A stretch of 64,000 bases of DNA. Origin: Proteiniborus ethanoligenes. GTDB lineage: Bacteria > Bacillota > Clostridia > Tissierellales > Proteiniboraceae. Positions 1,715 through 25,160 of this stretch are shown piece after piece. The stretch is taken from positions 1 through 64,000 of the forward strand of contig NZ_FNQE01000021.1 of the NCBI RefSeq assembly GCF_900107485.1, read 5' to 3'. The first letter of the stretch is position 1; each line of letters starts with the position of its first letter. The position numbers were made by a program, and so were the translations under genes. The notes under the pieces were generated by a model, which saw nothing but the letters and a program-made list of their open reading frames with translations, was not told the DNA's origin and searched no databases.

Positions 1715-1772
1715 TAAAAACTGCTTTCACCCTAAAGTCCATGAAGGATTTATAAAATTAAGTGAGGTTAAT

Positions 1773-3862: not shown

Positions 3863-3876
3863 CCAGGAGGGCTGAA

Positions 3877-4392: not shown

Positions 4393-4432
4393 AGCCCAAA
4401 CACTATACATTAATCCATGAGGAGGGTCAATA

Positions 4433-5053: not shown

Positions 5054-5062
5054 GATTGTGCT

Positions 5063-7378: not shown

Positions 7379-7389
7379 GGAGGACTTAT

Positions 7390-8145
7390 ATGAACAAGGC
7401 GTATTTTATAGGTGCAGGTCCTGGGGATCCAGAGCTTATAACAATAAAAGGCAAAAAAATAATAGATGAATCAGATGTAATAATATATGCAGGCTCTTTA
7501 GTAAATGAACAAGTATTAGAAAATAGAAAAGAAGGAAGTGTAGTATATAATAGTGCGTCTATGACCTTAGAAGAGGTTATAAAGGTAATAGCTGAAAGCA
7601 TCAAGGAAGGAAAAAAAGTAGCTAGAGTCCATACCGGAGATCCTAGCATATATGGAGCTATAAGAGAGCAAATAGATGCCCTTGAGGAGCTAGGCATAGA
7701 TAGTCAGGTAATACCTGGAGTTAGTTCCTTTACAGCTTCAGCTGCAGCTATAAAAAAAGAATTTACACTTCCTAATGTTTCACAGACAATAATATGTACT
7801 CGATTAGAAGGAAGAACCAAAGTGCCTGAGAGAGAAAGCCTTGAAAGCTTAGCATCACATAAAGCCTCTATGGCAATATTTCTATCAGTTCAAATGATAG
7901 ACAAGGTTGCAGAGAGGTTAAAGGAGCATTATGATGAAACTACACCAGTTGCAGTAATACAAAGAGCTAGCTGGCAGGATCAAAAGATAGTAATAGGGAA
8001 TCTTAGTAATATAGCTGAAAAAGTAAGGGCAGAAGGTATAAGTAAAACAGCTCAAATTTTAGTAGGTGATTTCTTAGGGGACGAATATGAATTGTCTAAG
8101 CTATACGATAAGAATTTCAGTCATGAATATAGGAGTGCTAAATGA
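7390..8145 (+). CDS. cbiF: cobalt-precorrin-4 C11-methyltransferase
   Basis: Tetrapyrrole methylase that adds the C-11 methyl group. The sequence shows the N-terminal FIGAGPGDPELITIKG, the second glycine-rich motif HTGDPSIYGA near residue 82, and the PGVSSFTASAAA stretch near residue 113, all typical of CbiF/CobM. The length of 251 residues is normal. A strong AAGGAGG precedes the ATG. The product feeds CbiG, whose gene overlaps the end of this one by four bases. Confidence 0.95.
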   Translation: MNKAYFIGAGPGDPELITIKGKKIIDESDVIIYAGSLVNEQVLENRKEGSVVYNSASMTLEEVIKVIAESIKEGKKVARVHTGDPSIYGAIREQIDALEELGIDSQVIPGVSSFTASAAAIKKEFTLPNVSQTIICTRLEGRTKVPERESLESLASHKASMAIFLSVQMIDKVAERLKEHYDETTPVAVIQRASWQDQKIVIGNLSNIAEKVRAEGISKTAQILVGDFLGDEYELSKLYDKNFSHEYRSAK

Positions 8146-9155: not shown

Positions 9156-9896
9156 ATGAATAAAGCAGGTAAAATATTTGTAGTAGGTTTAGGCCCTGGA
9201 GACAGAGCACATATGACCTTAGAGGCTAAGGCTGTCATAGAAAAATCAGATGTTATAGTTGGATACAAGACCTATATAGATTTAATAAAAGATATGATAG
9301 AAGATAAAGAAGTATTTTCTAGTGGAATGAAAAAGGAAATAGAAAGATGTACAGAAACTTTAGAAATCGCGAAACAAGGGAAAGTCGTATCTCTAGTCAG
9401 TAGTGGAGATTCAGGCGTTTATGGAATGGCTGGAATAATGCTGGAGGTAGTCTCCAAAGCTGAAAGTGACATTAAAGTAGAGATAATACCGGGAGTTACA
9501 GCTTCTAATGCTGCTGCTGCCTCATTAGGCGCACCTATTATGCATGACTATGCTACTATAAGCTTAAGTGATTTGCTTACAGATTGGAGCCTAATAGAAA
9601 AAAGGCTTCACTATGCAGGACAAGGGGATTTTGTAGTATGCTTATATAATCCTAAAAGTAAAGGAAGGCAAAAACAAATTGAAATAGCTAGAGAAATATT
9701 ACTAAAATACAAAAAACAGGATACTATAGTTGGAATAGTCAAAAATGCTAAAAGAGATGGAGAAACAGTTGTTATAACTACACTTAAAGATATGTTAAAA
9801 CACGAGATTGACATGTTTACTACAGTTATAGTAGGTAACTCAAATACCTATTTAGTAAATGGAAAGATTATAACCCCTAGAGGATACAAACTATGA
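9156..9896 (+). CDS. cbiH: cobalt-precorrin-3 C17-methyltransferase (ring contraction)
   Basis: Methylates C-17 and drives contraction of the macrocycle. The N-terminal VVGLGPGDRAHMT and the SSGDSGVYGMAG motif near residue 86 are the SAM-binding elements. PGVTASNAAAASLGAP near residue 114 and FVVCLYNPKSKGR near residue 160 are CbiH/CobJ signatures. The length of 246 residues is that of the plain methyltransferase without the extra iron-sulfur domain found in some CbiH60-type proteins. It overlaps cbiJ by four bases. Confidence 0.95.
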   Translation: MNKAGKIFVVGLGPGDRAHMTLEAKAVIEKSDVIVGYKTYIDLIKDMIEDKEVFSSGMKKEIERCTETLEIAKQGKVVSLVSSGDSGVYGMAGIMLEVVSKAESDIKVEIIPGVTASNAAAASLGAPIMHDYATISLSDLLTDWSLIEKRLHYAGQGDFVVCLYNPKSKGRQKQIEIAREILLKYKKQDTIVGIVKNAKRDGETVVITTLKDMLKHEIDMFTTVIVGNSNTYLVNGKIITPRGYKL

Positions 9897-10654
9897 TATT
9901 GGTACTATCAGGCACAGCTGATGGAAGAAAAATAATAGAAATCTTGTCTAACATAGGGTATTCGATTATAGCATCCACAGCTACAGAATACGGGAAGTTG
10001 TTAGTTGAAGCTAATAATAATTCAGTAGAGATAGTATCTAAAAGATTAGAAAAACCTGATATGGAAAAGCTAATTCTTAAAAAGGGAATAAAATATATAG
10101 TAGATGCTACACATCCCTATGCAGAAAATGTTTCAATAAATGCAATAGCTGCAAGTAAATCTACAGGCATAGAATATTTAAGATTTGAAAGAAAAGGCAG
10201 ACTTTATAGTGGAGTACAATATTTTTCAAGCTATAATAGTGCAATAATGCATTTGAAGGAAACCAAAGGAAATATTTTATTGACTACTGGTAGCAATAAA
10301 CTACATATATTCACATCTTCGCTTGATATTAGTAGATTATACGCAAGGGTTCTTCCTACTTATTCTGTACTTAAAAAATGTGAGGATTTAGGATTGCTTC
10401 CAAAGCAGATAATAGCAATTCAAGGACCTTTTACAAAAGAATTCAATAAAGCTATGTATGAAAATTATAGAATAGAATCTATGGTAACAAAAGATAGTGG
10501 AGATGTAGGTGGAACTACAGAAAAAATACAAGGAGCATTGGAAACAGGTGTAAATGTTATCCTTATACAAAGGCCTAATATAGAGTACACAAACTTATGT
10601 AATAGCATAGAAGAAGTTATAGAGATTGTTAATAAGAGATATAAAAAACAGTAG
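9893..10654 (+). CDS. cbiJ: cobalt-precorrin-6A reductase
   Basis: NAD(P)H-dependent reductase of the macrocycle (CobK/CbiJ family). The N-terminal LVLSGTADGRKI, the central DATHPYAENVSINA and the C-terminal TKDSGDVGGTTEK motifs are characteristic. The length of 253 residues is normal. It closes the first cobalamin operon: the next gene starts 380 bases further, behind a riboswitch. Confidence 0.94.
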   Translation: MILVLSGTADGRKIIEILSNIGYSIIASTATEYGKLLVEANNNSVEIVSKRLEKPDMEKLILKKGIKYIVDATHPYAENVSINAIAASKSTGIEYLRFERKGRLYSGVQYFSSYNSAIMHLKETKGNILLTTGSNKLHIFTSSLDISRLYARVLPTYSVLKKCEDLGLLPKQIIAIQGPFTKEFNKAMYENYRIESMVTKDSGDVGGTTEKIQGALETGVNVILIQRPNIEYTNLCNSIEEVIEIVNKRYKKQ

Positions 10655-10714
10655 TTGAACAGTAGTCAAACTACCGTTCCATTATCGACAAATTCACAAT
10701 TAAATAGTTTAAAA

Positions 10715-10873
10715 TTACAGGTTCTTTTAAAAGATTAATAGGGAAAGCGGTGTAAATCCGCTACAGCCCCCGCTACTGTAAGTGAGAACGAAATCATTAT
10801 TTACCACTGGAATAATATTTCTGGGAAGGTTTTGAGAGTAGGAAGTACCACAAGTCAGGATACCTGCCTGTAA
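10715..10873 (+). ncRNA. cobalamin (adenosylcobalamin-type) riboswitch
   Basis: The B12-sensing leader is recognisable by its conserved elements in order: AATAGGGAA at 10737-10745, GGTG-AAATCC at 10749-10759, the ACAGCCCCCGCTACTGTAAG block at 10763-10782, ACCACTGG at 10803-10810, CTGGGAAGG at 10821-10829, and AAGTCAGGATACCTGCC at 10852-10868. The ends form the closing P1 helix, TTACAGG (10715-10721) with CCTGTAA (10867-10873). It lies about 160 bases upstream of cbiK. Binding of the cofactor should lower expression of the cbiK to cobN operon. The family is firmly identified; the ligand class is inferred. Confidence 0.97.
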
Positions 10874-10879
10874 ATTTTA

Positions 10880-10910
10880 TAAATAAGCCTTCGGTGGGAA
10901 GTGGTTATTT
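10880..10910 (+). promoter_or_regulatory. hairpin in riboswitch expression platform
   Basis: Directly after the P1 helix, AAATAA-(G)-CCTTC pairs with GAA-GT-GGTTATTT around a short GGTGG loop. It is followed by an A/T-rich stretch and then a T-run at 10919-10925. It is a candidate part of the switching structure. Which helix competes with which cannot be decided by eye. Confidence 0.5.
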
Positions 10911-10937
10911 TATGTATAGTTTTTTGTGCATAGATAG

Positions 10938-10967
10938 AACCATAGTTTTAAGGCTGTGGTTTTTTTA
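10938..10967 (+). terminator. intrinsic terminator of the riboswitch
   Basis: AACCATAG (10938-10945) pairs with CTGTGGTT (10954-10961) through one G-U pair, followed by a run of T. It lies between the riboswitch and cbiK, so it is the likely attenuator through which the riboswitch acts. Confidence 0.8.
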
Positions 10968-11033: not shown

Positions 11034-11813
11034 ATGGGAAAAGGAATTATTGTAGCAAGCTTTGGTACTAGTTATAAAGAAACTAGGAGACTATGCATAG
11101 AAAGCATAGAAAACAGAATTAGAAGGGAGTTTAGTGGATACCAGGTAGAGAGAGGATTTACTTCTCAGATGGTAATCAATAAACTAAAAAAGCGAGATGG
11201 AATTGTAGTAAACAATGTCACAGAAGCCTTACAAGAAATGGAGCGAGAAGGAATAACTAAAGTTTTCATACAGTCTCTTCACATAATACCTGGACATGAA
11301 TACAATAAGCTATTAAAACAGGTAGAATTATTTAAGGAAAAGCATAAGCATATTACAGTCCATGTAGGAGCTCCATTACTATATGATTCTTCAGATTATG
11401 AGAATGTAGTTAAAGCTATTGAAATTAAGGATCTTAAACAAAACGAGGCAGTAGTATTTATGGGACATGGTACTGATCATATGTCTGATAGGAGCTACAG
11501 TTTATTGGAGAAATATTTTAGAAAGGAATATTCAGAAGATATATTTATTGGAACTGTAGAAGGCAGCACTACCTTGGAACATATAATACCTCAACTTATA
11601 GAGAAAAAAGTGACCAAGGTTAAACTAATACCTTTTATGCTGGTGGCAGGAGATCATGCAATAAATGACATGGCAGGAGAGCAAGAGGATTCGTGGAAAA
11701 GCATATTGAAGAAAAATGGATTTCAAGTAGAAGTATCTTTAAGTGGACTAGGTGAAGATGAAAAAATACAAGATATATTTGTATTACATTTAAAGGATGT
11801 TATAAACAATTAA
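11034..11813 (+). CDS. cbiK: sirohydrochlorin cobaltochelatase, CbiK type
   Basis: ATP-independent class II chelatase that inserts Co2+ into sirohydrochlorin (or factor II) at the start of the anaerobic pathway. The N-terminal IIVASFGTSYKETR is typical of CbiK. Likely metal-binding histidines lie in QSLHIIPGHEY (His83, His88) and FMGHGTDH (His145, His149). The length of 259 residues and the lack of a signal peptide suggest a cytoplasmic full-length CbiK rather than the short CbiX. It has a perfect AAGGAGGT site. It is the first gene behind the cobalamin riboswitch. An unrelated ATP-dependent chelatase set is encoded further along in the same operon. Confidence 0.94.
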   Translation: MGKGIIVASFGTSYKETRRLCIESIENRIRREFSGYQVERGFTSQMVINKLKKRDGIVVNNVTEALQEMEREGITKVFIQSLHIIPGHEYNKLLKQVELFKEKHKHITVHVGAPLLYDSSDYENVVKAIEIKDLKQNEAVVFMGHGTDHMSDRSYSLLEKYFRKEYSEDIFIGTVEGSTTLEHIIPQLIEKKVTKVKLIPFMLVAGDHAINDMAGEQEDSWKSILKKNGFQVEVSLSGLGEDEKIQDIFVLHLKDVINN

Positions 11814-11842
11814 TTAAATAAAATTACTAGGAGGAATACCCT

Positions 11843-12895
11843 ATGAAAAAATCAAGAATAATATCACTGTTATTAATAATTGTAATGCTAACTACAATTT
11901 TTACCGGATGTAGTAAAGGCAAGGAAACCGAAAATAATATACCCAATAGTGCTAGTGAAAGCAATAATGAAGATGTAAAAACAGATGACAATGAAGAATC
12001 GAATGAAGTGGTATCAGAGTATGGAGTAACTATAAATAAAGACAATGTTGTATTTACAGATGCTAGAGAAAAAGAAGTAACTATAAAGAAAAATCCCCAA
12101 AGAGTAGTTTGTCTATATAACTCTTATCTTGATATTTGGGATAGTTGTGGTGGAGAAGTAATAGGTAGAGTGGAGGAGTCAGAGGAAAAGCCTGTTGAAA
12201 GAGCTATGTCAGCCGAAGTAGTTGGAACTTCAGGTGCTCCAAGTCTCGAAAAAGTATTGGCACTAGAGCCAGATTTAGTTATTGTTACTAATGGATTTAA
12301 GGTTCAAGCGGAAATGGTTCCAGTATTTGAACAAAACAACATACAAGTTATTTCCTTAGGCAATGATTACTTAGAAGATTATTATAAAACCGTAAGACTT
12401 TTTACAGGAATAACAGAAAGAGAAGACTTATATGAAAAACATATAAATGAAGTTAAAAAAGGTGTAGATGAAATTATAGAAAAGGCACCTAAAGATAAAA
12501 ACTATAAAACTTTAATTATTTTTGCTTCTTCAAAGAGCATTACAGTTAGAAACTCTGACTCAATGGTAGGAGAAATGCTTAAAGATCTAAACACAATAAA
12601 TATATCTGATACGGAAACTGATCCAGCAAATGCTAGAGTTTTCAGTATGGAAAAAATAATACAAGAAGACCCAGATTTTATATTTGTACAAACTATGGGA
12701 AGTGATAAAGAAAAGATAATGGAAAGAATAAAGCAAGATGTGGAAGACAATCCAGCTTGGGCATCACTTACGGCTGTAAAGGAAGGCAAATATATAGTTT
12801 TACCAAAAGACTTATATCTATATAAACCAAATGCAAGATATGCAGAGGCTTATGAGGGATTAGCAAAGATACTCTATCCAGAAGTGTTTAATTAA
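11843..12895 (+). CDS. btuF: corrinoid/iron-complex ABC transporter substrate-binding lipoprotein (BtuF-like)
   Basis: Extracellular lipid-anchored receptor of the importer encoded just downstream. The signal peptide ends in the lipobox FTGC (cysteine near residue 23), followed by an Asn/Glu-rich linker of about 45 residues. The periplasmic-binding-protein fold of the TroA/BtuF class begins near residue 70 (NPQRVVCLY). EPDLVIVTNG and ALEPD motifs are typical. The gene sits behind cbiK under the riboswitch, so a corrinoid, cobinamide or cobalt complex is the likely cargo; a siderophore is the main alternative. Confidence 0.87.
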   Translation: MKKSRIISLLLIIVMLTTIFTGCSKGKETENNIPNSASESNNEDVKTDDNEESNEVVSEYGVTINKDNVVFTDAREKEVTIKKNPQRVVCLYNSYLDIWDSCGGEVIGRVEESEEKPVERAMSAEVVGTSGAPSLEKVLALEPDLVIVTNGFKVQAEMVPVFEQNNIQVISLGNDYLEDYYKTVRLFTGITEREDLYEKHINEVKKGVDEIIEKAPKDKNYKTLIIFASSKSITVRNSDSMVGEMLKDLNTINISDTETDPANARVFSMEKIIQEDPDFIFVQTMGSDKEKIMERIKQDVEDNPAWASLTAVKEGKYIVLPKDLYLYKPNARYAEAYEGLAKILYPEVFN

Positions 12896-12907
12896 AAATA
12901 TAACATG

Positions 12908-12940
12908 GCTGTACAGTACTTTAAAAAAGTACTGTACAGC
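12908..12940 (+). promoter_or_regulatory. perfect 15-bp intercistronic hairpin
   Basis: The arms 12908-12922 and 12926-12940 are perfect inverted repeats around a three-base AAA loop, but no T-run follows. It separates the binding-protein gene from the permease gene. Such hairpins often protect the 3' end of an abundant binding-protein message or cause partial termination, so that more receptor than permease is made. Confidence 0.75.
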
Positions 12941-12977
12941 TTAAACCAAAAACCAAACTTAAGGAGAAGAGAAAGAC

Positions 12978-13982
12978 ATGACTAACAGTGATACAAAAAA
13001 TGAAGTGATGAAAAAAAAGTTCATTTTATTTATTTTTATATGCATTTCTATAGCTAGCTTTTTTATAAGCATAGGAAATGGGGCTGTAAATATATCACCT
13101 AAAGAAATAATAAATGCCATATTATTTGATAAATCTACAGTAAATTATCAAATAATATGGAATGTTAGATTACCTAGGACAATAGTAGCTGCACTTGTTG
13201 GTACATGTCTAGCTTTATCAGGATCTATTTTGCAGGGAGTTATGAGAAATCCTTTAGCAGGTCCTAATATTATAGGAGTTTCATCTGGAGCAGGGCTTAT
13301 GACTTTAATTATCCTAATCCTTTTCCCAGATTTTTATTATCTTGCACCTATAGGAGCATTTACAGGAGCATTGTTAGCCACTTTGTTTATATACTTTTTA
13401 GCATGGAAGGAAGGCGTAGTTCCCACTCGATTAATTCTAGCAGGAGTAGCAGTATCTTCTCTTTTAGGTGCGGGAACTAATGCATTAATGACATTTTATC
13501 CAAACAAAGTAGCAGGGGTTATAGGATTTATGGTCGGTGGACTATCAGCAACTAATTGGAAGCATGTGTATACTATATTCCCATATGCAACATTAGGTAT
13601 AATTTTACTTTTATTAATACCAAATAAATTGAACATATTAATGCTGGGAGATGAAGTTGCAACAGGACTTGGAGTAAATGTAGAGAAGACTAGATTTGTT
13701 TTTATTATTATTTCCTCCTTATTAGCAGGTAGTGCTGTTAGTGTTGTTGGACTTTTAGGCTTTGTAGGGCTAATAGTGCCACATATTACTAGATTATTTA
13801 TTGGCTCAGATTATAGATACTTACTACCAGCAGCTATTTTCACAGGTTCAAGTATAGTTATGCTCTGTGATACTGTTGCGAGGTTGTTATTTGCCCCTAC
13901 AGAAATACCTGTAGGAATTATTATGTCAGCTTTAGGAGCGCCATTTTTCTTGTATTTACTTAGAAGAAAGGGAGAATATTAA
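12978..13982 (+). CDS. btuC: corrinoid/iron-complex ABC transporter permease (BtuC/FecCD family)
   Basis: Membrane subunit of a type II ABC importer. It has about ten hydrophobic segments and the FecCD signatures WNVRLPRT near residue 55, QGVMRNPLAGPNIIG near residue 85, and GLLGFVGLIVPHITR near residue 260. The length of 334 residues is typical. It precedes its ATPase gene by one base. Together with the lipoprotein upstream this forms a complete importer under the cobalamin riboswitch, which favours corrinoid as substrate. Confidence 0.9.
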   Translation: MTNSDTKNEVMKKKFILFIFICISIASFFISIGNGAVNISPKEIINAILFDKSTVNYQIIWNVRLPRTIVAALVGTCLALSGSILQGVMRNPLAGPNIIGVSSGAGLMTLIILILFPDFYYLAPIGAFTGALLATLFIYFLAWKEGVVPTRLILAGVAVSSLLGAGTNALMTFYPNKVAGVIGFMVGGLSATNWKHVYTIFPYATLGIILLLLIPNKLNILMLGDEVATGLGVNVEKTRFVFIIISSLLAGSAVSVVGLLGFVGLIVPHITRLFIGSDYRYLLPAAIFTGSSIVMLCDTVARLLFAPTEIPVGIIMSALGAPFFLYLLRRKGEY

Positions 13983-13983
13983 C

Positions 13984-14766
13984 ATGGAAATGAGAATTGA
14001 AAACATAAGCGTAAATTATGGAGAGAAAAGGGCTATTAGAAATGCCAATTTTGACATAAATACTGGACAAATAGTAACTATCATAGGTCCTAATGGTTCA
14101 GGAAAATCAACTTTGGTTAAGGCAATGAGCAGATGTATAAAGCCTACAGAAGGTAATATTTATCTAGAAGGCATAAATATAAAAAATATAAACACTAAAA
14201 TTATAGCACAAAAGATGGCTATATTACCTCAAGTAAAAAATGTATCTTCAGATATTTCTGTAGAAGAACTAGTATCTTATGGTAGATATCCTCATTTAAA
14301 GTTTAGTAAGAGACTGGGAAAAGAAGATATTGAAATAGTAGATTGGGCCTTAGAAAAAACAGGGCTTATTCATTTAAGAAAAAGATTTGTAGCAACACTT
14401 TCTGGTGGGGAAAGACAGAGGGCATGGATAGCTATGTCATTAGCACAAAAACCAAAAATACTTCTATTAGATGAACCTACTACTTTTCTTGATATATCTT
14501 ATCAAGTAGAAGTTTTAGAACTAGTAAAAGAATTAAATCAAACTTTAGGCTTAACTGTAGTTATGGTTTTACATGATTTGAATCAAGCTGCCAGGTATTC
14601 AGACAAGATATTAGTTATAAAAAATGGTGAGCTTTGTGAAATAGGAAAGCCAGACAAAATAATAAAAGAAAAATTATTGAAAGATATTTTTAAAATAAAT
14701 GCAGATATATATGAAGACAAGATAAATAACTGCCCCTATTTTATACCAAGAAAAAAAGTTACTTAA
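13984..14766 (+). CDS. btuD: corrinoid/iron-complex ABC transporter ATPase (BtuD/FecE family)
   Basis: ATPase of the importer formed with the two preceding genes. Walker A GPNGSGKST is near residues 36-44, the signature LSGGERQRAWIA near residue 141, Walker B LLLDEPTTFLD near 160, and the H-loop VLHDLNQ near 196. The length of 260 residues is normal. It resembles the orphan ATPase at 352 in family and size, but the two differ clearly in sequence and are not a recent duplication. Confidence 0.9.
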   Translation: MEMRIENISVNYGEKRAIRNANFDINTGQIVTIIGPNGSGKSTLVKAMSRCIKPTEGNIYLEGINIKNINTKIIAQKMAILPQVKNVSSDISVEELVSYGRYPHLKFSKRLGKEDIEIVDWALEKTGLIHLRKRFVATLSGGERQRAWIAMSLAQKPKILLLDEPTTFLDISYQVEVLELVKELNQTLGLTVVMVLHDLNQAARYSDKILVIKNGELCEIGKPDKIIKEKLLKDIFKINADIYEDKINNCPYFIPRKKVT

Positions 14767-14788
14767 ATAAATGTGTTGGAAGTGATTC

Positions 14789-15628
14789 ATGATGATACAG
14801 ATTGAAAATGTTACCAAAATGTTTGATGATTTTGTTGCTGTAAACAATGTAAGTTTAAATATAGCTAAAGGAGACTTCATAGGACTTCTAGGACCAAATG
14901 GAGCTGGGAAAACTACTATTATAAAAATGCTTACAGGCTTGTTAAAGCCAACATGTGGGAGCATATATATAAATGGTGAAAAAATGTCCCGGGATAATAA
15001 AAAAGCAAAAGAAATATTAGGAATAGTTCCTCAATATACTAATCTAGATAAAGAGCTGACAGCATATGAAAATTTAGTTTTTGCAGCAAAGCTTTTTAGG
15101 GTTGGGGACTACAAAAATAAAACAATGGAGCTTCTTAAATTTATGGAGTTAGAAAATTATAAAGACAGAAAGGCAATGAATCTATCAGGCGGAATGGCTA
15201 GACGATTGATGATAGCAAAAGCATTAATAAACGATCCAGAAATCATATTTCTGGACGAGCCTACTGTAGGAATAGATTTAAATGGTAGGAGAAAAATATG
15301 GGATATTTTGAAAACAATGAAAACCATGGGGAAAACTATACTATTAACAACCCACTATATTGAGGAAGCCGATTATCTATGCAATAAGGTATGTTTAATA
15401 GATAAAGGAAAAATAATAGACAATGATACTCCTGACAATCTTAAGAAGGAACTAGGAATTTATACTATGGAATATTTTGATGAAGAAATGAAAACCAAGT
15501 ATAAATTTTTCAAAAATAAAGAGGAAGCAATAAAATACTCAAATAAAATTATGAGTTTAAATTATACACTCAGGGAAACTACATTAGAAGATGTATTTTA
15601 TAACTTTACAAATAGGAAGGTAATATAA
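14789..15628 (+). CDS. ABC-2 type transporter ATP-binding protein
   Basis: ATPase of an export-type transporter of the DrrA/NodI class. Walker A GPNGAGKTT is near residues 35-43, the signature LSGGMARRL near 133, and Walker B IIFLDEPTVGID near 152. A C-terminal extension of about 60 residues (LRETTLEDVF near the end) is typical of ABC-2 exporters. It is followed by its permease with a one-base gap. The pair lies between the B12 importer and the chelatase genes in the riboswitch operon. The cargo is unknown; a tetrapyrrole, metal or chelate is suggested by context only. Confidence 0.85.
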   Translation: MMIQIENVTKMFDDFVAVNNVSLNIAKGDFIGLLGPNGAGKTTIIKMLTGLLKPTCGSIYINGEKMSRDNKKAKEILGIVPQYTNLDKELTAYENLVFAAKLFRVGDYKNKTMELLKFMELENYKDRKAMNLSGGMARRLMIAKALINDPEIIFLDEPTVGIDLNGRRKIWDILKTMKTMGKTILLTTHYIEEADYLCNKVCLIDKGKIIDNDTPDNLKKELGIYTMEYFDEEMKTKYKFFKNKEEAIKYSNKIMSLNYTLRETTLEDVFYNFTNRKVI

Positions 15629-15629
15629 A

Positions 15630-16364
15630 ATGGAAGTATTTACTGTAATGTGGAGAGAATTTATTTTTTTTAAAAGGAGAATTGGAAAGATTACCTCTAC
15701 TGCTATAATGACACCTATCTTATATCTTATAGCCTTTGGCTGGGGGCTAGGAAGAGATGTAATCATAGAAGGCTCTAGTTATATGCACTTTATAATACCA
15801 GGAATTATAGCCCTTTCTACCATGAACACTAGCTTTAACGCAGTAGCTATGAGAATAAATATATCTAAACTGCATGAAAAAAGCTTCGAATACTATTTAA
15901 CCTCTCCTGTTAGAATGCCATTGATGGCATTAGGTCATATACTATCAGGAGCCTTAAGAGGTATGTATGCAGCCACACTTATTATCCTTGTATCTTATCT
16001 TTTCGGAATCAAGATAAATATAGATAGTTATTTTATATTAATTTGCTTTTTAAATAGCTTTTTATTCTCTGCTTTTGGATATGGAGCAGCACTATCAATA
16101 GATAGTCACTATGATATGAATAGGTTTACTACCTATATAATGACACCTATGTCTTTTTTATGTGGAACCTTTTTCTCTTTAAACAATCTCCCTTTAATGA
16201 TAAAGAAAATAATAAGTGTTTTGCCTCTTTCTCATGCATCTATTTCATTAAGAAACATTGTTTTAAAAGGTGAGTTTGACTATAAATCCATTATTGTATT
16301 ATTTACATATTCTATAATCTTTTATTGCTTTGGAGTTTACATGAGTTTTAGAGAAATGAAGTAG
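15630..16364 (+). CDS. ABC-2 type transporter permease
   Basis: Six-helix membrane subunit of the ABC-2 (NodJ/DrrB) class, 244 residues. An N-terminal cytoplasmic start is followed by a first helix with [11 protein letters not shown], a [12 protein letters not shown] segment near residue 55, and the [18 protein letters not shown] stretch near residue 170 that is characteristic of the family. It pairs with the ATPase immediately upstream. No substrate can be read from the sequence. Confidence 0.83.
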
Positions 16365-16372
16365 AAAGGAAT

Positions 16373-17413
16373 GTGATCAGCTTGCATACAGAAAACAATA
16401 CAAATTATCCCTTTACTGCAATAGTAGGTCAGGAAAGTATGAAAAAAGCCTTGATTCTTAATATAATTAACCCTTCAATTGGAGGGGTTCTTGTTAGAGG
16501 CGAAAAAGGAACCGGAAAGTCTACAGCAGTTAGGGCTATTGTAGATATTTTGCCTAGTAGAGGAGAAATAAAGGATTGCATATTTAGCTGCGACCCATTA
16601 GATTTGAGCAGAATGTGTGAAGAATGTAAGGAAAAAACAGTTAACAATGAAAATATTAATATAAAAGAAGGAAAAATGAAAGTAATAGAATTGCCTATTA
16701 ATGCAACAGAAGATAGGGTAGCAGGAACACTAGACATACAGACTGCAATAAAAAAAGGCGAGAAAAAATTTGAGGCTGGAATACTTGCATTCGCTAATAG
16801 AAATATTCTCTATATAGATGAGGTAAATCTATTAGATGACCATATAGTAGATATGTTACTAGATGCTGCAGCCATGGGAATAAATAATATTGAAAGAGAG
16901 GGTATATCCTATTCTCATCCCTCAAGATTTATTTTAGTAGGCACAATGAACCCTGAAGAAGGAGATATAAGACCACAGCTTATAGATAGATTTGGCTTAG
17001 TTGTAGATGTAATTGGTGAAAGAGACAATAAAAATAGAATCGAAGTAATAAAGAGACGTATAGAGTTTGAAAAAAATCCAAAAACTTTCATTAAAAGTTA
17101 TGAAGAAGAAAATAATAAACTTGCAGAAAAAATAAGTAAAGCTAAAAATTTATTAGAACAAGTTAATTATGATGATTCTATACTAGAGTCTACAGTTAAG
17201 CTTTGTATAAAGCTTGGATTAGATGGACATAGAGGAGATATAACTGCTATTAAAACAGCCATTACTATTGCAGCCTTTGAGGGAAGAACATTTGTCACTA
17301 GAAATGATTTAGTCCAGGCATTAAAGCTTGTTATACCTCATAGAATGAGAAAAATGCCATTTGAAGAGGGAAACATAGATATTAAAAATATTTATGAACT
17401 ACTAGAAAGCTAA
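16373..17413 (+). CDS. BchI/ChlI-like AAA+ chelatase subunit
   Basis: AAA+ ATPase of the magnesium/cobalt chelatase I-subunit family. It would drive metal insertion together with the BchD-like and CobN proteins encoded next. Walker [10 protein letters not shown] lies near residues 43-51. A cysteine-containing insert ([13 protein letters not shown]) follows near 80, then Walker [11 protein letters not shown] near 146, with sensor and arginine-finger regions in [19 protein letters not shown]. The length of 346 residues is normal. The given start is GTG at 16373, with AAAGGA only two bases before it; TTG at 16382 would be better spaced. Cobalt is the inferred metal because the CobN partner is adjacent. 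Confidence 0.88.
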
Positions 17414-17427
17414 TGGGAGGTATGAAA

Positions 17428-19293
17428 TTGAGTAAATGCATATATCCTTTTCCTGCAATAGTAGGTCAAGAAAAATTGAAAAGGGCTATATTATTAAACC
17501 TTGTGAATCCTAGAATTGGTGGAGTGCTCATAAGTGGTGAAAAAGGAACAGGGAAAAGCACTATTGTCAGATCTATACCTTCCATATCAAGCTCTGTTAA
17601 AGTAATAGAGTTACCACTTAATATTACAGAAGATAGGTTAATAGGTGGCATTGATATAGAAAAAGCCATTATATTTGGTAGAAAAGAACTCGAAGAAGGC
17701 ATACTTAAAAAGGCAGATAGCAATATACTATATATGGACGAAGTGAATCTACTAAGTGATAGTATTATGAATACTGTATTGGAAGTAGCATCTTCGGGAT
17801 TCAATATTATTGAAAGAGAAGGAATATCTTATAAACATAGGTCTAAATTTGTACCTATAGGTACAATGAATCCAGAGGAAGGTAGTATAAAGCCTTTATT
17901 TTTGGACAAGTTTGGGCTTTTTGTATCTGTAAAAGGAGATACTAATTTTCAAAATAGAATAGAAATTATAAAAAGAAGAATACAGTATGAAGAAGATAAA
18001 ATGAGTTTTTATCAGCAATGGCTAGGTGAATGTGAAGAATTAAATAATAAAATAGAAAAAGCGAAAACTATTTTAAGTCAAATTACTATATCGGAAGAAT
18101 TATTAAATATAATAGCCGATACACTGAATGCTTTTGCCTGTGAAGGGAATAGAACAGAAGTAATAGTTGTAGAAACTGTAAAGGCAATAGTTGCAATAGA
18201 TAATAGAATAGAAGGAAATATAGATGATATAAAAGAAGCCTTTAGCTATGTACTGCCACATAGAATGAGAAAAAAACCAAAGGACAAAGAAAACACCAAC
18301 AATAATGGGGACAATCAAGAAAATCAAAATAATAATGAGCATAGTAATGATAAAAACAATGAGATGGAAGATAGTGAAAGTCATGTAGAAAACATGACAA
18401 GTGACTTTGATAGCAAAGATGTAAAAGATTCACTATCAGATATAGAAGTTATAGAGAATATAGGGAATACTTTTAAAGCTAAAAATATGTATTTTAAAAA
18501 TAAGGATAATAGATTTAGAAAGGGCTCTGGTAGAAGGAGCTTATCTAAAACCGAATCAAAGCAAGGAAGATATATAAGATACAGATCTAAAAACAAAGAA
18601 ATAAGAGATATATCATTAGATGGAACACTAAGAGCAGCAGCTCCTTATCAAAAATTTAGAGAAAAAAATGGAGTGGCCATAGCCATAAAAAATAGGGATT
18701 TAAGAGAGAAAATACGAGAAAAACCAACAGGAGTGACTATATTTTTCCTAGTAGATGCTAGTGGCTCTATTTCAGTAAGAAAGAGAATGGAGGCAGTAAA
18801 AGGAGCTATAATGTCATTGCTAACAGATGCTTATGAAAAAAGAGACAAGGTTTCTCTAATAGCCTTTAGAAAAGAATCATCAGAAATTTTATTACAGACT
18901 ACTAGAAGCGTAGAATTAGCAAAAAAACATTTAAGTGAATTACCTTCAGGTGGCAAAACACCTCTTTCTGCAGGAATGGATAAGGCCTATAACTACATTA
19001 AAAGCCAATGGATTAAAGATACAGATATGATACCACTATTAGTTCTAATATCAGATGGGAGAGCAAACGTATCTTTAACAGGAGAAGACCCCTTAGTAGA
19101 ATGTAATGAAATTGCTGATAAAATTAGAAAAAAAGAAATAAAATCCTTAGTAATAGATACAGAAAATGGATTCTTTAAATTTGGAACATTAAAAGAGCTT
19201 TCTAGAAGAATGGGAGCAACTTATTTAAGTATAGAAGATTTAAGTGATAAATCCATATATAATTCTGTAAAGAATTTGACAATCTCTAACTAG
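17428..19293 (+). CDS. BchD-like AAA+/VWA chelatase subunit
   Basis: Second ATPase-class subunit of the chelatase. An N-terminal AAA+ domain (about residues 1-290) keeps an apparently intact Walker [10 protein letters not shown], and Walker B, ILYMDEVNLL. A linker rich in Asn, Asp and Glu spans about residues 295-345. A C-terminal VWA domain has the MIDAS motif DASGS near residue 450 and a later TPLS. In many ChlD proteins the N-terminal ATP site is degenerate; here it is not. The start is taken as TTG at 17428 because GGGAGG (17415-17420) lies seven bases before it. An in-frame ATG at 17413 precedes that site and overlaps the previous stop codon. Confidence 0.87.
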   Translation: MSKCIYPFPAIVGQEKLKRAILLNLVNPRIGGVLISGEKGTGKSTIVRSIPSISSSVKVIELPLNITEDRLIGGIDIEKAIIFGRKELEEGILKKADSNILYMDEVNLLSDSIMNTVLEVASSGFNIIEREGISYKHRSKFVPIGTMNPEEGSIKPLFLDKFGLFVSVKGDTNFQNRIEIIKRRIQYEEDKMSFYQQWLGECEELNNKIEKAKTILSQITISEELLNIIADTLNAFACEGNRTEVIVVETVKAIVAIDNRIEGNIDDIKEAFSYVLPHRMRKKPKDKENTNNNGDNQENQNNNEHSNDKNNEMEDSESHVENMTSDFDSKDVKDSLSDIEVIENIGNTFKAKNMYFKNKDNRFRKGSGRRSLSKTESKQGRYIRYRSKNKEIRDISLDGTLRAAAPYQKFREKNGVAIAIKNRDLREKIREKPTGVTIFFLVDASGSISVRKRMEAVKGAIMSLLTDAYEKRDKVSLIAFRKESSEILLQTTRSVELAKKHLSELPSGGKTPLSAGMDKAYNYIKSQWIKDTDMIPLLVLISDGRANVSLTGEDPLVECNEIADKIRKKEIKSLVIDTENGFFKFGTLKELSRRMGATYLSIEDLSDKSIYNSVKNLTISN

Positions 19294-19377
19294 CTAATTT
19301 AAAGACGAGTTTATTAAGAACAAATCAGATAATTATTATTTTATTTATGGCAGTTATCATATGGAGGAGATAGATAA

Positions 19378-22300
19378 ATGTATAAATTAGTCGTAGTAAG
19401 TGTATCTAACCCTGTTATAGCAGATATAATAGAGGCTAAAAAAACTATTGAAGAAAAATACAAGAGTATTTTAGAAGTTAGGCTTTTTTTCGTTGGGAGA
19501 AAAGTAGAAGAAAAGGACTTAAAAGAAATAGAAGATACTATATTAAAAGGAGACTTTATAATACTTGATTTAATGGGAAGTGGAGAAAAAGTAGGTAAAA
19601 CTTGCTTTAACGCATGTAAATCAAGTAATGGAAACATAGTGGTCATAGGCAATTTAGGTAGAAATAATTTAAACAAAATTTCAAAGCTAGGAAGCTTTTA
19701 TGTAGACGAAATATCAAGTAAATTAAATAAGTCCAATAAAAAAATGCTTACAGACGAAATCTTAAATATGGCAAAGGAAGTAGAACTTTTAGAGAAAAAT
19801 ATTCCCATTGAGAAACGTAAGGATATTATCAACTATGTAAACATAGGAAGGTATTGGAAGAACGCTGGCTTAGAGGAAATAACAAATCTACTATATTTAA
19901 TATTAAGGGATTATGGTAAATATGAAATGCTTCCAAAACCTAAGCTTCCTACTGAATATAATCCAATATCAATTTGCAAACCTACAAATATGAAAAGATT
20001 TGAAAATATAAATGAGTATGTGGCTTCGGGATATGTGGATTATCAAAAACCTACAGTTGTTATATTTTACTATGGGAATAGCTCTCCAAATAGGATACAA
20101 AAAGCCATAGGCAAAATATCAAATAGAATATCTGAATTTGCCAATATAATACCTATAGCATTTATGTCCTATGGAAGAAGACATTTGCAAGAAGTTGAAA
20201 AAATACTTTTCTCACCGACTTCTCCAAGCGTAGATGTAATATTAAACTTCATGTCATTTAGGTTAGGCTCAGGCCCCATGGGAGAAGATGAGCATGAAGC
20301 TATGGAATTGCTGAAAAAGATAAATGCTCCTGTACTACATCCATTTTTTATGCCTAAAAGACAAATAACTGAATGGTTAAGTTCAGAAAGGGGGATTAGC
20401 ACTGCTGAATTTTTGACTACAGTCATGCTGCCAGAGCTAGATGGAGCTATAGAAACCTATCCTGTAGGAGCAATTGTTGAAAATAAATGGAACGAAGAAT
20501 ATGGAGTTGAATTAATAGAAGTAGATATTATTGAGGATAGAGTAATAAAATTGATAAATAGGATTAAGAAATGGATTGAGCTTAGGTATAAAGAAAATAA
20601 AGATAAAAAAGTTGCAATTATATGTTACAATTACCCACTATCAGAAGGAAACATATTCGGTGGTGCATTTTTAAATACCTTTGAATCTATAGAGAATATA
20701 CTTAGCAGGCTAAAAAAAGAAGGCTATAGTGTAGAGGCTTTAACTAAAGAAGAATTAATGGACTATTTTACTGCTGGTAAAATAGTGAATTCTGGTAAGT
20801 GGGGAGAAGATCAGCTAAGTGAACACATGATTAAGTATGATTCTAAAAAATACATAGAGGAAATGAATAACACATTATATTACAAAGAAACTTGTAGTCA
20901 GTGGGGAGAAGCACCTGGAAATATAATGACAGAGGGAGATAAATTTTTAATACCAGGGAAGGTAATTCAAAATGCATTTATAGGCTTACAGCCTACTAGA
21001 GGAATACATGAAAATCCAGAAAAAGCATATCATGATAAAGCTCTCACACCTCATCATCAATATCAAGCATATTATAAATGGTTAAATGAAGAGTTTAATG
21101 CAGATATAATGATACATGTAGGAACGCATGGAACACTTGAATTTCTAAAAGGAAAAGAGTGTGGAATGTCATCTGATTGTTATCCAGACATGCTTGTATA
21201 TGATATACCACATGCTTATATATATAATTGTACTAATCCAGCAGAATCTTCAATAGCAAAGAGAAGATCCCATGCAGTGCTAGTAAGCTATCAACCACCG
21301 CAATTTGTCCAAGGAGAGCTATATGGTGATTTGATAGAAATAGAATCATTAATAAATGAATACCACGTTTCAGAGCAAACAGATCCTACTAAATGTAATG
21401 ATATTTTCAATAAAATAAAGAAAAAGGCAGAGCAATCAAATATAATTATTGAGGATCTAGATACTTTAGAAAATGAGCTTTATAGAATGAAAAGATCCTT
21501 AGTTCCTTATGGACTTCATACCTTTGGGAAAGGATATACAGAAGAGGAAGCTACTGAGTATATGAAGTTTATATTAAGATATGATAGATCTGAGGCAAAG
21601 TCCTTAAGAAGACTAGTATGTGAAAAAAATGGACTAGATTATGATGAAATTTTACAAACTAATAAAATAGATATTCTGCAAGAACTAGATGATAGGTCCT
21701 CAAAAATAGTAGATAATTTTCTGAAAGGAATAAAGGTAGAGAATGCATATCATGATACATTAAATTATGGGAAAAAGCATATGGAAAATGCAAAAAAGTG
21801 TAATGAAATGGAAGGACTTTTAAAGGTATTAAATGGTGAATACTTAGGAGCAAAATTAAGTGGTGATATTTTTAGAAATCCAGAAGTATTACCAACAGGG
21901 TATAATTTATTTCAGTTTGATCCTTATTCGGTACCTACTGAGGTTGCTTATGAAAGAGGATGGAGAATAGCAGAAAATACAATAGAAAAATTTATAGACG
22001 AAAAAGGAACATATCCTAATAATGTGGCTATAGTATTATGGGGAATAGAAACTTCTAGAACACAAGGAGAAACCTTAGGGCAGATCTTAAGCTATTTAGG
22101 AGTTAGAATATTAAAGCAAAAAGGCCAGTTTAATTTTAAATATGAAATTATTCCCATTGATGAGCTGAATAGGCCTAGAATAGATGTAACTATTGATATG
22201 TCTGGATTTTTTAGAGACATGTTTCCTAATATGGTAGAAGAGTTAAACAATATATTTAGAGATATTTATCTTTTAGAAGAGCCTGAAGAGCTAAATTATT

Positions 22301-23097
22301 TTAAAGCCAATAGTAAGAAAATTTATGAAAAGCTTATAAACCAAGGGTATTCAAAGGAAGAAGCAGAAGAACTATCATATGCTAGACTCTTTGGACCAAG
22401 AGAAGGAGAATATGGCAACGGTGTTACGAAACTAATAGAAAATAAAAACTGGGACATGGAATCTCAAATAGGAGAGTTATTTATTCAAAACACAGGAAAT
22501 GTATATACAAAAAATTATAGAGGGAAAAAAGTTGAAGGTTTGTTTGAGGATATTTTATCTAAAGTAGATATAGTAACTCAAATAAGAAGTTATCATGGAT
22601 ATGAAGTTACAGACTTAGATGATTTCTATGGACATTTTGGGGGCTTATCTAAGGCTGTTGAAGTGTCTAAGGGTGAAAAACCTTTAATATATATTAATGA
22701 CACTACTGGGGAAAAGATAGAAACTGATAATGTTGAAAATTCAATAGAACGTGGAGTAAGGACTAGATTATTAAACCCTAAATGGATAGAAGGTATGCTT
22801 CAGAATAAATATCATGGTGCTCAAAAAATAGAAAAGATATTTAAAAATCTAATAGGCCTTTCATCAACTACAAATGGAGTTAAAGGCTGGATATTTGATA
22901 GCTTACATTCCACTTATATTTCAGATGAAAACATGCGTGAAAAGATGAAGGAAAATAACAGATGGGCATACTTAGATATATTAGAAAGAATGTTAGAAGC
23001 AAATGAAAGGGGATATTGGAAATCAAGTAAAGAACAGTTAGAGGAATTACGGAAAGTGTATTTCCAAGTGGAAGGTAGCATAGAGGAGAAAATATGA
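19378..23097 (+). CDS. cobN: CobN-like chelatase large subunit
   Basis: Tetrapyrrole-binding large subunit of an ATP-dependent chelatase (CobN/BchH superfamily), 1239 residues, normal for CobN. Recognisable stretches are GRYWKNAGLEEI near residue 158, HVGTHGTLEFLKGKECGMS near 580, and LWGIETSRTQGETLGQIL near 887. The two AAA+ partners are encoded directly upstream. CobN usually works late in the aerobic pathway, on hydrogenobyrinate a,c-diamide, whereas this organism has the anaerobic enzymes and CbiK. The true substrate and metal are therefore open: late cobalt insertion, cobalt exchange in salvaged corrinoids, or another metal. BchH (magnesium) is less likely, since no chlorophyll genes are present. 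Confidence 0.88.
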   Translation: MYKLVVVSVSNPVIADIIEAKKTIEEKYKSILEVRLFFVGRKVEEKDLKEIEDTILKGDFIILDLMGSGEKVGKTCFNACKSSNGNIVVIGNLGRNNLNKISKLGSFYVDEISSKLNKSNKKMLTDEILNMAKEVELLEKNIPIEKRKDIINYVNIGRYWKNAGLEEITNLLYLILRDYGKYEMLPKPKLPTEYNPISICKPTNMKRFENINEYVASGYVDYQKPTVVIFYYGNSSPNRIQKAIGKISNRISEFANIIPIAFMSYGRRHLQEVEKILFSPTSPSVDVILNFMSFRLGSGPMGEDEHEAMELLKKINAPVLHPFFMPKRQITEWLSSERGISTAEFLTTVMLPELDGAIETYPVGAIVENKWNEEYGVELIEVDIIEDRVIKLINRIKKWIELRYKENKDKKVAIICYNYPLSEGNIFGGAFLNTFESIENILSRLKKEGYSVEALTKEELMDYFTAGKIVNSGKWGEDQLSEHMIKYDSKKYIEEMNNTLYYKETCSQWGEAPGNIMTEGDKFLIPGKVIQNAFIGLQPTRGIHENPEKAYHDKALTPHHQYQAYYKWLNEEFNADIMIHVGTHGTLEFLKGKECGMSSDCYPDMLVYDIPHAYIYNCTNPAESSIAKRRSHAVLVSYQPPQFVQGELYGDLIEIESLINEYHVSEQTDPTKCNDIFNKIKKKAEQSNIIIEDLDTLENELYRMKRSLVPYGLHTFGKGYTEEEATEYMKFILRYDRSEAKSLRRLVCEKNGLDYDEILQTNKIDILQELDDRSSKIVDNFLKGIKVENAYHDTLNYGKKHMENAKKCNEMEGLLKVLNGEYLGAKLSGDIFRNPEVLPTGYNLFQFDPYSVPTEVAYERGWRIAENTIEKFIDEKGTYPNNVAIVLWGIETSRTQGETLGQILSYLGVRILKQKGQFNFKYEIIPIDELNRPRIDVTIDMSGFFRDMFPNMVEELNNIFRDIYLLEEPEELNYFKANSKKIYEKLINQGYSKEEAEELSYARLFGPREGEYGNGVTKLIENKNWDMESQIGELFIQNTGNVYTKNYRGKKVEGLFEDILSKVDIVTQIRSYHGYEVTDLDDFYGHFGGLSKAVEVSKGEKPLIYINDTTGEKIETDNVENSIERGVRTRLLNPKWIEGMLQNKYHGAQKIEKIFKNLIGLSSTTNGVKGWIFDSLHSTYISDENMREKMKENNRWAYLDILERMLEANERGYWKSSKEQLEELRKVYFQVEGSIEEKI

Positions 23098-23261: not shown

Positions 23262-23852
23262 ATGAAGTTTATATTAGTTAGGCATGGAGAGACAGAGGCT
23301 AACATAGGAGGAATATATAGCGGATGGACAGATTTTCCTCTAACTGAAAAAGGAAATAAGGACATACAAGCTACTGCAAGGGCATTAAAGAGATATGCGG
23401 ATATAGATATAATATATTCAAGCCCATTAAATAGAGCCTTAAGCACTGCTAAAGCTATATCAGCAGCTATTAATAAAGAAATTCAGGTAGTTCCTAATTT
23501 GAAGGAAATGAATTTTGGTATATTTGATGGAAAAGAAAGAGAATACATTCAAAAAAACCATTCTAGTGAGTGGGATTCTTGGCTTAAGGACTATGTAAAC
23601 TATAGAATACCACAGGGAGAAAATTTATTAGATGTGTATGATAGAATAGTAGATTTTATAGAAATGCTTATAGAAAAAGACAAGAGCTGTATAATAGTCA
23701 CTCATGGAGGTATTATACAGACCATGATTACACATTTACTAGACTTAGGCTTGGACAAAATGTGGCATTTTCAATGTCTGCCTGCAGGATATGTTGAGAT
23801 AGAGTATGTAGATAATTTTGGGTATTTAAGGAGACTAGAACATTGTAACTAA
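23262..23852 (+). CDS. cobC: alpha-ribazole-5'-phosphate phosphatase (histidine phosphatase)
   Basis: Member of the phosphoglycerate-mutase-like histidine phosphatase family. The catalytic VRHGETEAN motif is near residues 6-14 and the second histidine is in IIVTHGGI near residue 148. The length of 196 residues is normal. CobC removes the phosphate from alpha-ribazole phosphate, or from adenosylcobalamin phosphate. On sequence alone it could be any small-molecule histidine phosphatase, but the next two genes are the alpha-ribazole transporter and kinase, and the cobalamin genes lie upstream, so CobC is the best name. Its translation start is unusual (see the preceding hairpin). Confidence 0.85.
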   Translation: MKFILVRHGETEANIGGIYSGWTDFPLTEKGNKDIQATARALKRYADIDIIYSSPLNRALSTAKAISAAINKEIQVVPNLKEMNFGIFDGKEREYIQKNHSSEWDSWLKDYVNYRIPQGENLLDVYDRIVDFIEMLIEKDKSCIIVTHGGIIQTMITHLLDLGLDKMWHFQCLPAGYVEIEYVDNFGYLRRLEHCN

Positions 23853-23884
23853 AAATTCTTTTATTTAAAACTGGAGGAGTTAAA

Positions 23885-24397
23885 TTGAAAACATGGGAAA
23901 CTTTATACGATACAAAAAACATTACTAAACTAACTTATTGTGGAATGCTTATAGGATTATCTGCAATAGGCTCTATGATAAAGATAAGTGGAAGCATTGC
24001 TTTTGATTCTATGCCAGGCTTTTTTGCAGCATTATTTTTAGGGCCTTGGGCAGGTGCTGTTGTAGCAGGGCTTGGACACCTATTAACGGCACTTACAAGT
24101 GGCTTTCCATTAACCTTACCTATGCATTTAGTGTTAGTATTGGAAATGGGGCTATTTGCTTATTTATTTGGAATTATATATAGAAAAAGAGGGAGCATAG
24201 TCGCTTCTATTGTGGCTATTATTTTAAACGGACCTGTAGCATCACTTTTTGCAGTGCCTATGTCTATTGTTTTAGGACTTCCATTTAGTGGGTGGCCACT
24301 ATTCAGTGTTGTTATTTTGCCTCTTACGTTGGCATCCATAGGGAACGTAGTTTTAGCTCTGTCAGTATTTAAGGTAATAAATAAAAGGATTAGATAG
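23885..24397 (+). CDS. cblT: ECF-type transporter S component, probable alpha-ribazole transporter
   Basis: Small membrane protein of 170 residues with five or six hydrophobic segments, typical of the substrate-binding S component of energy-coupling-factor transporters. Glycine-rich loops such as AALFLGPWAGAVVAGLGHLL near residue 50 fit the family. CblT imports alpha-ribazole in Gram-positive bacteria and is typically encoded next to the kinase CblS, as here. The start is TTG at 23885 with GGAGGAG (23873-23879) five bases upstream. The shared energising module (EcfA/A'/T) is not in the window and is presumably elsewhere. Confidence 0.82.
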   Translation: MKTWETLYDTKNITKLTYCGMLIGLSAIGSMIKISGSIAFDSMPGFFAALFLGPWAGAVVAGLGHLLTALTSGFPLTLPMHLVLVLEMGLFAYLFGIIYRKRGSIVASIVAIILNGPVASLFAVPMSIVLGLPFSGWPLFSVVILPLTLASIGNVVLALSVFKVINKRIR

Positions 24398-24407
24398 GAT
24401 TGATTTT

Positions 24408-25160
24408 ATGAAAATATTTAAATTTAGAGACTTAACCCTTATAGATATAAATGAAGAACAGCTTATGGTAATCTCCTGTGATTCATCAGGAGGCATAGGA
24501 AATAAAGAAAAGGATGTGGTTAAGGTAGAACCGGAGGTGTTAGGCTATTTTACAACACAGGTGGCACTTATGGAAATACTAGCCATTGGAGCCACGCCTA
24601 TAACCATAGTTAATGCATTATCTGTAGAAATGAATGATACAGGAGAAAAAATAATTAAAGGAATAAAAAAAGCATTACAGCCCTTAAATCTCCTCCAAGC
24701 TGAAATAATAACAGGAAGTACGGAGGAGAATATTCCTGTATGCCAGACTGCAATGGGGATTACCGTAATAGGGATAATAGATAAAAGGAATTGGAAAAAA
24801 CCAAAGACCATAGAGAATTCTCTTGCTGTATTAGTGGGTATCCCTAAAGTTGGATATGAAGTATTGGAGGATAGAGGAAGAGAAATATTATCTATTAGCC
24901 ATCTACTGGGATTGAAAAGTAATCCTAACATTTATGAAATTCTTCCTGTAGGCTCAAAGGGCATACTCTATGAGCTAAAGGAAATGGCAAGGACTAATAA
25001 TTTAGCATATTGCTTAGATGATAATATTTCGTTAGATTTATATAAATCAGCAGGGCCTGCAACCTGTGCTATTATTTCAATAGCTGAAGAAGAATACGAT
25101 AATCTTAAAAATAATATTTCTATACCTGTTAATAAAATAGGAAAATGGATTAGATTATAA
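24408..25160 (+). CDS. cblS: PurM/ThiL-like protein, probable alpha-ribazole kinase
   Basis: Protein of the AIR synthase (PurM/ThiL/SelD) fold, 250 residues. The N-terminal VISCDSSGGIGNKEKDVVKV region resembles the nucleotide-binding part of the fold, and LMEILAIGATPI and GSTEENIP follow. CblS phosphorylates alpha-ribazole to alpha-ribazole phosphate for CobS. The pairing with cblT and cobC gives a coherent lower-ligand salvage module. An unrelated PurM-like kinase is possible by sequence alone, but the neighbourhood makes CblS much more likely. Confidence 0.84.
   Translation: MKIFKFRDLTLIDINEEQLMVISCDSSGGIGNKEKDVVKVEPEVLGYFTTQVALMEILAIGATPITIVNALSVEMNDTGEKIIKGIKKALQPLNLLQAEIITGSTEENIPVCQTAMGITVIGIIDKRNWKKPKTIENSLAVLVGIPKVGYEVLEDRGREILSISHLLGLKSNPNIYEILPVGSKGILYELKEMARTNNLAYCLDDNISLDLYKSAGPATCAIISIAEEEYDNLKNNISIPVNKIGKWIRL

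Follow-up and report, generated by a model that had tools for sequence, protein, structure and literature searches.

A riboswitch-led operon of Proteiniborus ethanoligenes joins CbiK with a class I chelatase that may release cobalt from tetrapyrroles

The window analysed here is a stretch of 64,000 nucleotides from the contig NZ_FNQE01000021.1 of Proteiniborus ethanoligenes. Behind a cobalamin riboswitch it carries one run of plus-strand genes ending at 23097: cbiK, a BtuFCD-type importer, an ABC-2 type (ATP-binding cassette) pair, chlI, chlD, and the gene for the large subunit of a class I metal chelatase. The large subunit falls in a clade (clade A) separate from aerobic CobN. Most of its relatives in Bacilli have predicted Zur or Fur sites in place of the riboswitch, and the genus of the window has replaced two residues of the active site. 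The reading preferred here is that the large subunit releases cobalt at the expense of ATP and feeds CbiK. It is tentative, with a probability of roughly 0.38. The original prediction described two chelatase classes behind one riboswitch together with genes of the anaerobic pathway, and all the parts it named are found on the plus strand, the genes being intact.

The large subunit and its active site

The large subunit (19378–23097, plus strand) has 1239 residues and matches the CobN/BchH superfamily (PF02514, 1062 bits). It scores 870 bits against the BchH model TIGR02025, above the cut-off of 829, and this model may simply catch clade A. Against the CobN model TIGR02257 it scores 625 bits, below the cut-off of 822. 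With the BchH cut-off passed and the CobN cut-off failed, "CobN" is a mere label here. A quick tree of 68 proteins was evaluated by the Shimodaira–Hasegawa-like approximate likelihood ratio test (SH-aLRT) without bootstraps. The large subunit falls with proteins from Clostridia, Bacilli and archaea, plus a few from elsewhere, in clade A (SH-aLRT 100), which is separate from the plasmid-encoded aerobic CobN proteins of Sinorhizobium, Azotobacter and other organisms. HmuS was represented by the hmuY-TonB-hmuS locus of Prevotella nigrescens, and long branches make the placement of both HmuS and BchH uncertain. Judged from its sequence, the large subunit is not a CobN of the aerobic pathway, and the view of the set as a chelatase for late insertion in the aerobic pathway, a use that the original prediction called normal for it, is not supported.

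The AlphaFold2 model of residues 151–1239 (predicted local distance difference test score 88) matches ChlH (4zhj, Z 40.2), CobN (7c6o, Z 39.6) and HmuS (9d26, Z 32.9) over nearly its whole length. The Foldseek/VIA comparison does not separate the functional classes, with equal scores for ChlH and CobN and a slightly lower one for HmuS.

The first motif, HxGTHG..E, is retained in the large subunit, as are H584 (equivalent to H538 of HmuS) and the ChlH-type glutamates E588 and E623. The second motif of clade A, LDHxxE(F/Y), is that of HmuS, in which the metal site is lined by this His and this Glu (PMC12583661). At the codons 1082–1085 of the window gene (22621–22632, plus strand), Asp..Gly is seen where the 87 other clade-A proteins have His..Glu. 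The equivalents of HmuS H1209 and E1212 are therefore D1082 and G1085. In 168 alignment columns the 87 other rows show at least 95% conservation, and seven of these columns deviate in all three species of the window genus. The His and the Glu of the pair, found without exception in the other rows, account for two of the seven. In solved CobN structures (9fpc/9uk9), the residue aligned with Asp1082 is likewise Asp. The second motif of aerobic CobN is SDDYYQ, extended as SDDYYQFxGG; the Asp is common to both proteins, while the Gln corresponds to Gly1085.

The cobN gene shows a ratio of nonsynonymous to synonymous substitution rates (dN/dS) of about 0.09 between species of the genus. This purifying selection indicates that Asp..Gly is a change and not decay. 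A decaying pseudogene was considered and rejected on this ratio and the intact motifs. The loss of conserved active-site residues, which the original prediction had named as a ground for abandoning its idea, is seen in part: the His and Glu of HxxE are gone, while the second His of the active site is kept, as are the two ChlH-type Glu. The replacement suggests, at the level of sequence, a shift to cobalt or corrin chemistry in this genus.

The same Asp can be read in another way. ChlI-ChlD-CobN could load cobalt into imported or damaged metal-free corrinoids, in line with the original prediction, with CbiK responsible for de novo insertion. Asp1082 is unique to this genus within the clade, the riboswitch precedes the operon, and cblT/cblS-like salvage genes lie downstream, all consistent with insertion or repair. 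The strictly anaerobic pathway, however, yields no metal-free corrin, Gly1085 stands in place of the usual Gln of CobN, and relatives in the clade without nearby corrinoid genes carry Zur- or Fur-like boxes. Insertion or repair is considered unlikely, and it is the main rival of cobalt release.

The cassette and its regulation in relatives

Loci of relatives were taken as the best 80 from one scan of the genome collection. The usual neighbors of the clade-A gene in Firmicutes are btuF-btuC-btuD and chlI-chlD. A cobalamin riboswitch lies ahead of the cassette in 18 of the 22 evaluable loci of Clostridia, Tissierellia and Negativicutes. This hand count takes in four loci with at least one gene between the riboswitch and the cassette: a TonB-type receptor (L044, L092), ExbB/TonB (L086), or one gene (L058). 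The riboswitch is also seen in all nine whole-genome clostridial relatives that have clade A and enough flanking sequence.

In Bacilli, no riboswitch precedes the cassette in any of 22 loci (all covered by a pattern search, six also by cmscan). Here, a Zur-like box is present in 14 loci and a Fur-like box in four, within two mismatches. These boxes are consensus matches, and hence predicted sites, and closely related species are counted more than once. Such boxes precede 18 of 22 cassettes; for the remaining gene starts of these loci, the figure is 19 of 378 (p 1e-17). Three mismatches are reached by 2.4% of shuffles for the Zur box and 9.6% for the Fur box. One Zur-box copy (L072) is preceded by a gene for a CobW-family GTPase. 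In the Zur-box cobN operon of Evansella vedderi (L060), the next gene (13829–14284) is short and encodes just the N-terminal portion of a ferrochelatase domain.

The replacement of the riboswitch by Zur- and Fur-like boxes indicates that the cassette is not inherently a corrinoid system. A role specific to corrinoids is not supported: the same importer-ChlID-CobN set regularly recurs in Bacilli under Zur- or Fur-like boxes without adjoining corrinoid genes, so that this second ground for abandoning the idea, also named in the original prediction, applies to the family. Importer-linked handling of metallo-tetrapyrroles fits the cassette better than a corrinoid-specific role. A link to an imported tetrapyrrole, also foreseen, is likely. 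By analogy with HmuS, the handling by clade A is probably metal release. Since close relatives of the large subunit stand behind zinc- or iron-starvation sites, it is probably part of a system for scavenging nutrient metals, which here serves cobalt and B12, and not part of ordinary B12 synthesis. Searches of an open-access library gave no earlier description of the exchange between Zur, Fur and riboswitch control or of the altered active site, though one may exist. No relevant paper on coproporphyrin zincophores was found in the same library.

The Fur-like boxes of the four Bacilli loci also bear on heme-iron salvage, in which the large subunit would be an ATP-dependent cousin of HmuS and the riboswitch would have been acquired by the adjoining corrinoid genes. 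The HmuS-like motif of the clade agrees with this, as does IsdE, the best NCBIfam match of the window BtuF, although below the cut-off. Most clostridial copies are under the riboswitch, and the window genus has lost precisely the His..Glu pair of HmuS; salvage of heme iron is thus very unlikely.

A lipoprotein-like family of 160–215 residues, to which no Pfam model matches, is repeatedly encoded next to the chlID-cobN cassette, chiefly at riboswitch-type loci (L046:16789–17349; also L045, L049, L052, L054, L057, L058, L061, L062 and L080). A second, distant CobN type with about 30% identity is present in one to three copies per locus in L033, L034, L036, L039, L040 and L063. Its neighbors are SPASM radical SAM proteins, CbiZ-domain proteins, FecBCD and often an ABC-2 pair, and some copies are without the active-site His (HxGTGG). 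In Pseudoalteromonas, a CobN-like gene (L149:3755–8555) lies near TonB-receptor-like genes and behind two small membrane-protein-like genes. Its protein groups with HmuS in the tree, an unsure position because of long branches, and the layout is like that of the Zur-controlled PA1922-PA1925 of Pseudomonas aeruginosa.

Layout of the operon and its two units

The riboswitch aptamer (RF00174) is located at 10702–10885 on the plus strand (cmscan 137 bits, E 2e-34, gathering threshold 31.5) and is the sole Rfam match within the window. Between it and cbiK, a terminator-like hairpin (10936–10963, plus strand) of 12 pairs is followed by a T-rich tail. This is a consensus match only, and the hairpin is the probable off-switch. 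All the following genes are also on the plus strand. cbiK (11034–11813) encodes a class II sirohydrochlorin cobaltochelatase (PF06180, 293.6 bits), which is under its NCBIfam equivalog cut-off (262 of 400). It aligns over the full length with Salmonella CbiK (1qgo), with both catalytic His present in GHG and GDH, and a signal peptide is not apparent. The importer (11843–14766) consists of a btuF-like substrate-binding lipoprotein of the Peripla_BP_2 family (11843–12895; PF01497, 116 bits), a btuC-like permease (12978–13982) and a btuD/FecE-like ATPase (13984–14766). The ligand of BtuF is not identifiable from relatives in the PDB, of which the nearest, siderophore binders, match weakly. After the ABC-2 pair come the chlI/bchI-type AAA+ small subunit (16373–17413; TIGR02030, 413 bits, below the cut-off of 467, Walker A intact) and the chlD/bchD-type medium subunit (17413–19293), which by profile matches has AAA+ and VWA domains with the DxSxS motif.

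The ABC-2 pair consists of an ATPase of the DrrA/NodI class (14789–15628), the probable exporter half (drrA, 270.6 bits, below the cut-off; Walker A, LSGG and Walker B intact), and a permease (15630–16364; PF01061, 80 bits). The original prediction correctly placed this pair between the two chelatases and omitted the importer, which also lies there. Permease homologues at E 1e-20 or better are found in 12 of 391 genomes of the class, and 11 of them are in chelatase, corrinoid or siroheme loci, which ties the pair to such surroundings. Five, including that of the window genome, are beside CobN-type genes, five are beside cbiK in genomes without CobN, and one is in a riboswitch-btuFCD locus; the weakest is unrelated. 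Three of the five cbiK-only cases sit in runs of uroporphyrin/siroheme genes. The simplest reading of the pair is a tetrapyrrole exporter.

Based on the BtuC tree, the window BtuC groups with those of cbiK/ABC-2 units (the first copy of genome G028, and G056), outside the ordinary BtuC group of clade-A CobN. BtuC of the cbiK/ABC-2 locus in G189, which lacks CobN, is likewise outside that group. A single BtuC lineage for all clade-A modules is therefore only broadly true. G028 has both units, cbiK-btuCD-ABC2-btuF and then chlI-chlD-btuF2-btuC2-cobN. In the window, a cbiK/BtuFCD/ABC-2 unit seems to have been fused to a chlID-cobN unit, from which btuF2-btuC2 appears to have been lost in the window genus; we infer this order of events. 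In G050, cbiK, ABC-2 and cobN are kept, btuC and btuF are reduced to short pieces, and chlI-chlD are at another site beside a CbiZ-like gene.

CobN is found in 10 of the 391 genomes, nine of which also have cbiK, compared with 93 of 391 overall (p 1e-5). The co-occurrence suggested as a check is thus seen, and shared B12 synthesis may explain part of it. cbiD is present in all 17 tested clostridial genomes with a CobN-type gene. In six lineages (the window genus, L012, L011, L047, L061 and L080), cbiK and cobN share one operon or riboswitch cluster in differing gene orders. This partnership would also suit a second early-insertion chelatase, driven by ATP and tighter or faster than CbiK, which under cobalt scarcity would metallate sirohydrochlorin or precorrin-2 with cobalt. 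Such an enzyme leaves the importer, the ABC-2 pair and the Zur/Fur copies in Bacilli without adjoining cbi genes unexplained, and this reading is quite improbable. Neither CbiM nor NicO cobalt uptake was found in the window genome. CobN as a general substitute for CbiM was rejected, as CbiM is present in nine of the 10 CobN genomes.

Upstream, an anaerobic cobamide operon occupies 352–10654 on the plus strand, with open reading frames named from sequence as btuD, cobU, cobS, cbiA, btuR and cbiC-D-E-T-F-G-H-J; cbiD is confirmed by PF01888. Two further genomes of the genus have the same gene order, which indicates that the window operon is not a chance assembly. Downstream of cobN (23262–25160) are genes for a histidine phosphatase, an energy-coupling factor (ECF)-type S component and an AIRS-domain protein, which we take to resemble the alpha-ribazole salvage set cobC-cblT-cblS. 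No bacteriochlorophyll genes are among the named genes of 352–25160; the remaining genome was not searched for bch genes. The genome holds two cobalamin riboswitches. The second (L154, G000:C18:5890–6071, minus strand) heads cbiP-cbiB-cobD-btuF-btuC and the run reaches the contig end; it may join onto position 352 of the window. GC skew is near zero at 36001–40000 and 54001–58000, unlike the remainder of the window, probably because of minus-strand genes.

Direction of the reaction and comparison with known systems

It can be proposed that shortage of B12 would let the riboswitch permit transcription of the operon. BtuFCD would bring in a metal-bearing tetrapyrrole or corrinoid, and the large subunit, powered by ChlI/ChlD, would remove the metal. 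The freed cobalt might pass to CbiK for new B12, and the ABC-2 pair might send out the emptied macrocycle. In the window genus, the large subunit would have been retuned, with the HmuS/BchH-type His..Glu replaced and the Asp of true cobaltochelatases gained. The Asp substitution, the partnership with cbiK and the riboswitch point to cobalt for this genus. The data show the gene content, the riboswitch, the clade, the regulatory swap in relatives at the level of predicted sites, the altered active site and the purifying selection. Removal as the direction, cobalt as the metal, the substrate, the exporter role and the hand-over to CbiK are what we infer.

Cobalt release is supported by the separation of clade A from CobN, the importer in most Firmicutes cassettes, the Zur/Fur boxes and the HmuS-like motif. 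The cbiK-cobN clusters of six lineages, the lack of CbiM and NicO, the second riboswitch heading btuF-btuC, the loci of the ABC-2 permease and the low dN/dS of cobN add to this. Several points weigh against it. Asp1082 is the residue of insertion-type CobN, so the enzyme could insert. The hallmarks of HmuS, its Met-rich insertion (an HmuS-only stretch in the alignment) and its periplasmic anchor, are absent. Loss of most of the importer in G050 implies that import is perhaps not needed, and the frequency of CbiM among CobN genomes means that cobalt shortage is no general explanation. Taking cobalt out of a finished corrin is chemically very hard, and we know of no precedent for ATP-driven metal removal. 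The direction is the weak point, and it is for this reason that the probability is set no higher.

In a wider and rather doubtful scenario, metallo-tetrapyrrole scavenging would be modular, with an importer, an ATP-driven class I de-chelatase and sometimes an exporter, and its control would have been switched between starvation for zinc (Zur), for iron (Fur) and for cobalt/B12 (riboswitch). This genus would have re-evolved the cobaltochelatase-type Asp after loss of the cassette's own importer, feeding CbiK of the same operon. If cobalt release is true, bacteria can mine tetrapyrroles for zinc and cobalt, besides iron. For the majority of CobN-like proteins in anaerobes no function is known, and according to the HmuS paper they are not reliably annotatable (PMC12583661). 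The regulatory swap is a genomic clue for one large clade, and Zur- and Fur-box relatives in culturable Bacilli are test cases. The residues 1082 and 1085 are highlighted, and their exchange may alter the metal or the direction of the reaction.

Four known systems can be compared. The HmuS/BtuS heme de-chelatase of Bacteroidota shares the superfamily, the fold and the link to an importer, and clade A has its motif LDHxxEF-GG. Salvage of metalloporphyrins by BtuS was proposed in 2003 by Rodionov, as cited in PMC6460266, and heme de-chelatase activity of HmuS was demonstrated in 2025 (PMC12583661). HmuS is periplasmic and NADH-dependent, a need for ChlI/ChlD is not reported, and it has the Met-rich insertion and the His..Glu pair that the window protein lacks. 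The aerobic cobaltochelatase CobNST shares the fold, the three-subunit ATP-driven design and the Asp at position 1082. The window protein is in a separate clade, and neither cobG/cobF-type genes of the aerobic pathway nor CobW adjoin it. The magnesium chelatase BchH/ChlH with ChlI/ChlD gives the best NCBIfam score and shares ChlI/ChlD-type subunits and the catalytic Glu; no bacteriochlorophyll genes adjoin the window gene, and the tree separates clade A from BchH. In Pseudomonas aeruginosa, the operon PA1922-PA1925 (PMC4542158) also combines uptake with a CobN-like protein, in a Zur-regulated response to zinc starvation. It is based on TonB/ExbD, with no ChlI/ChlD reported.
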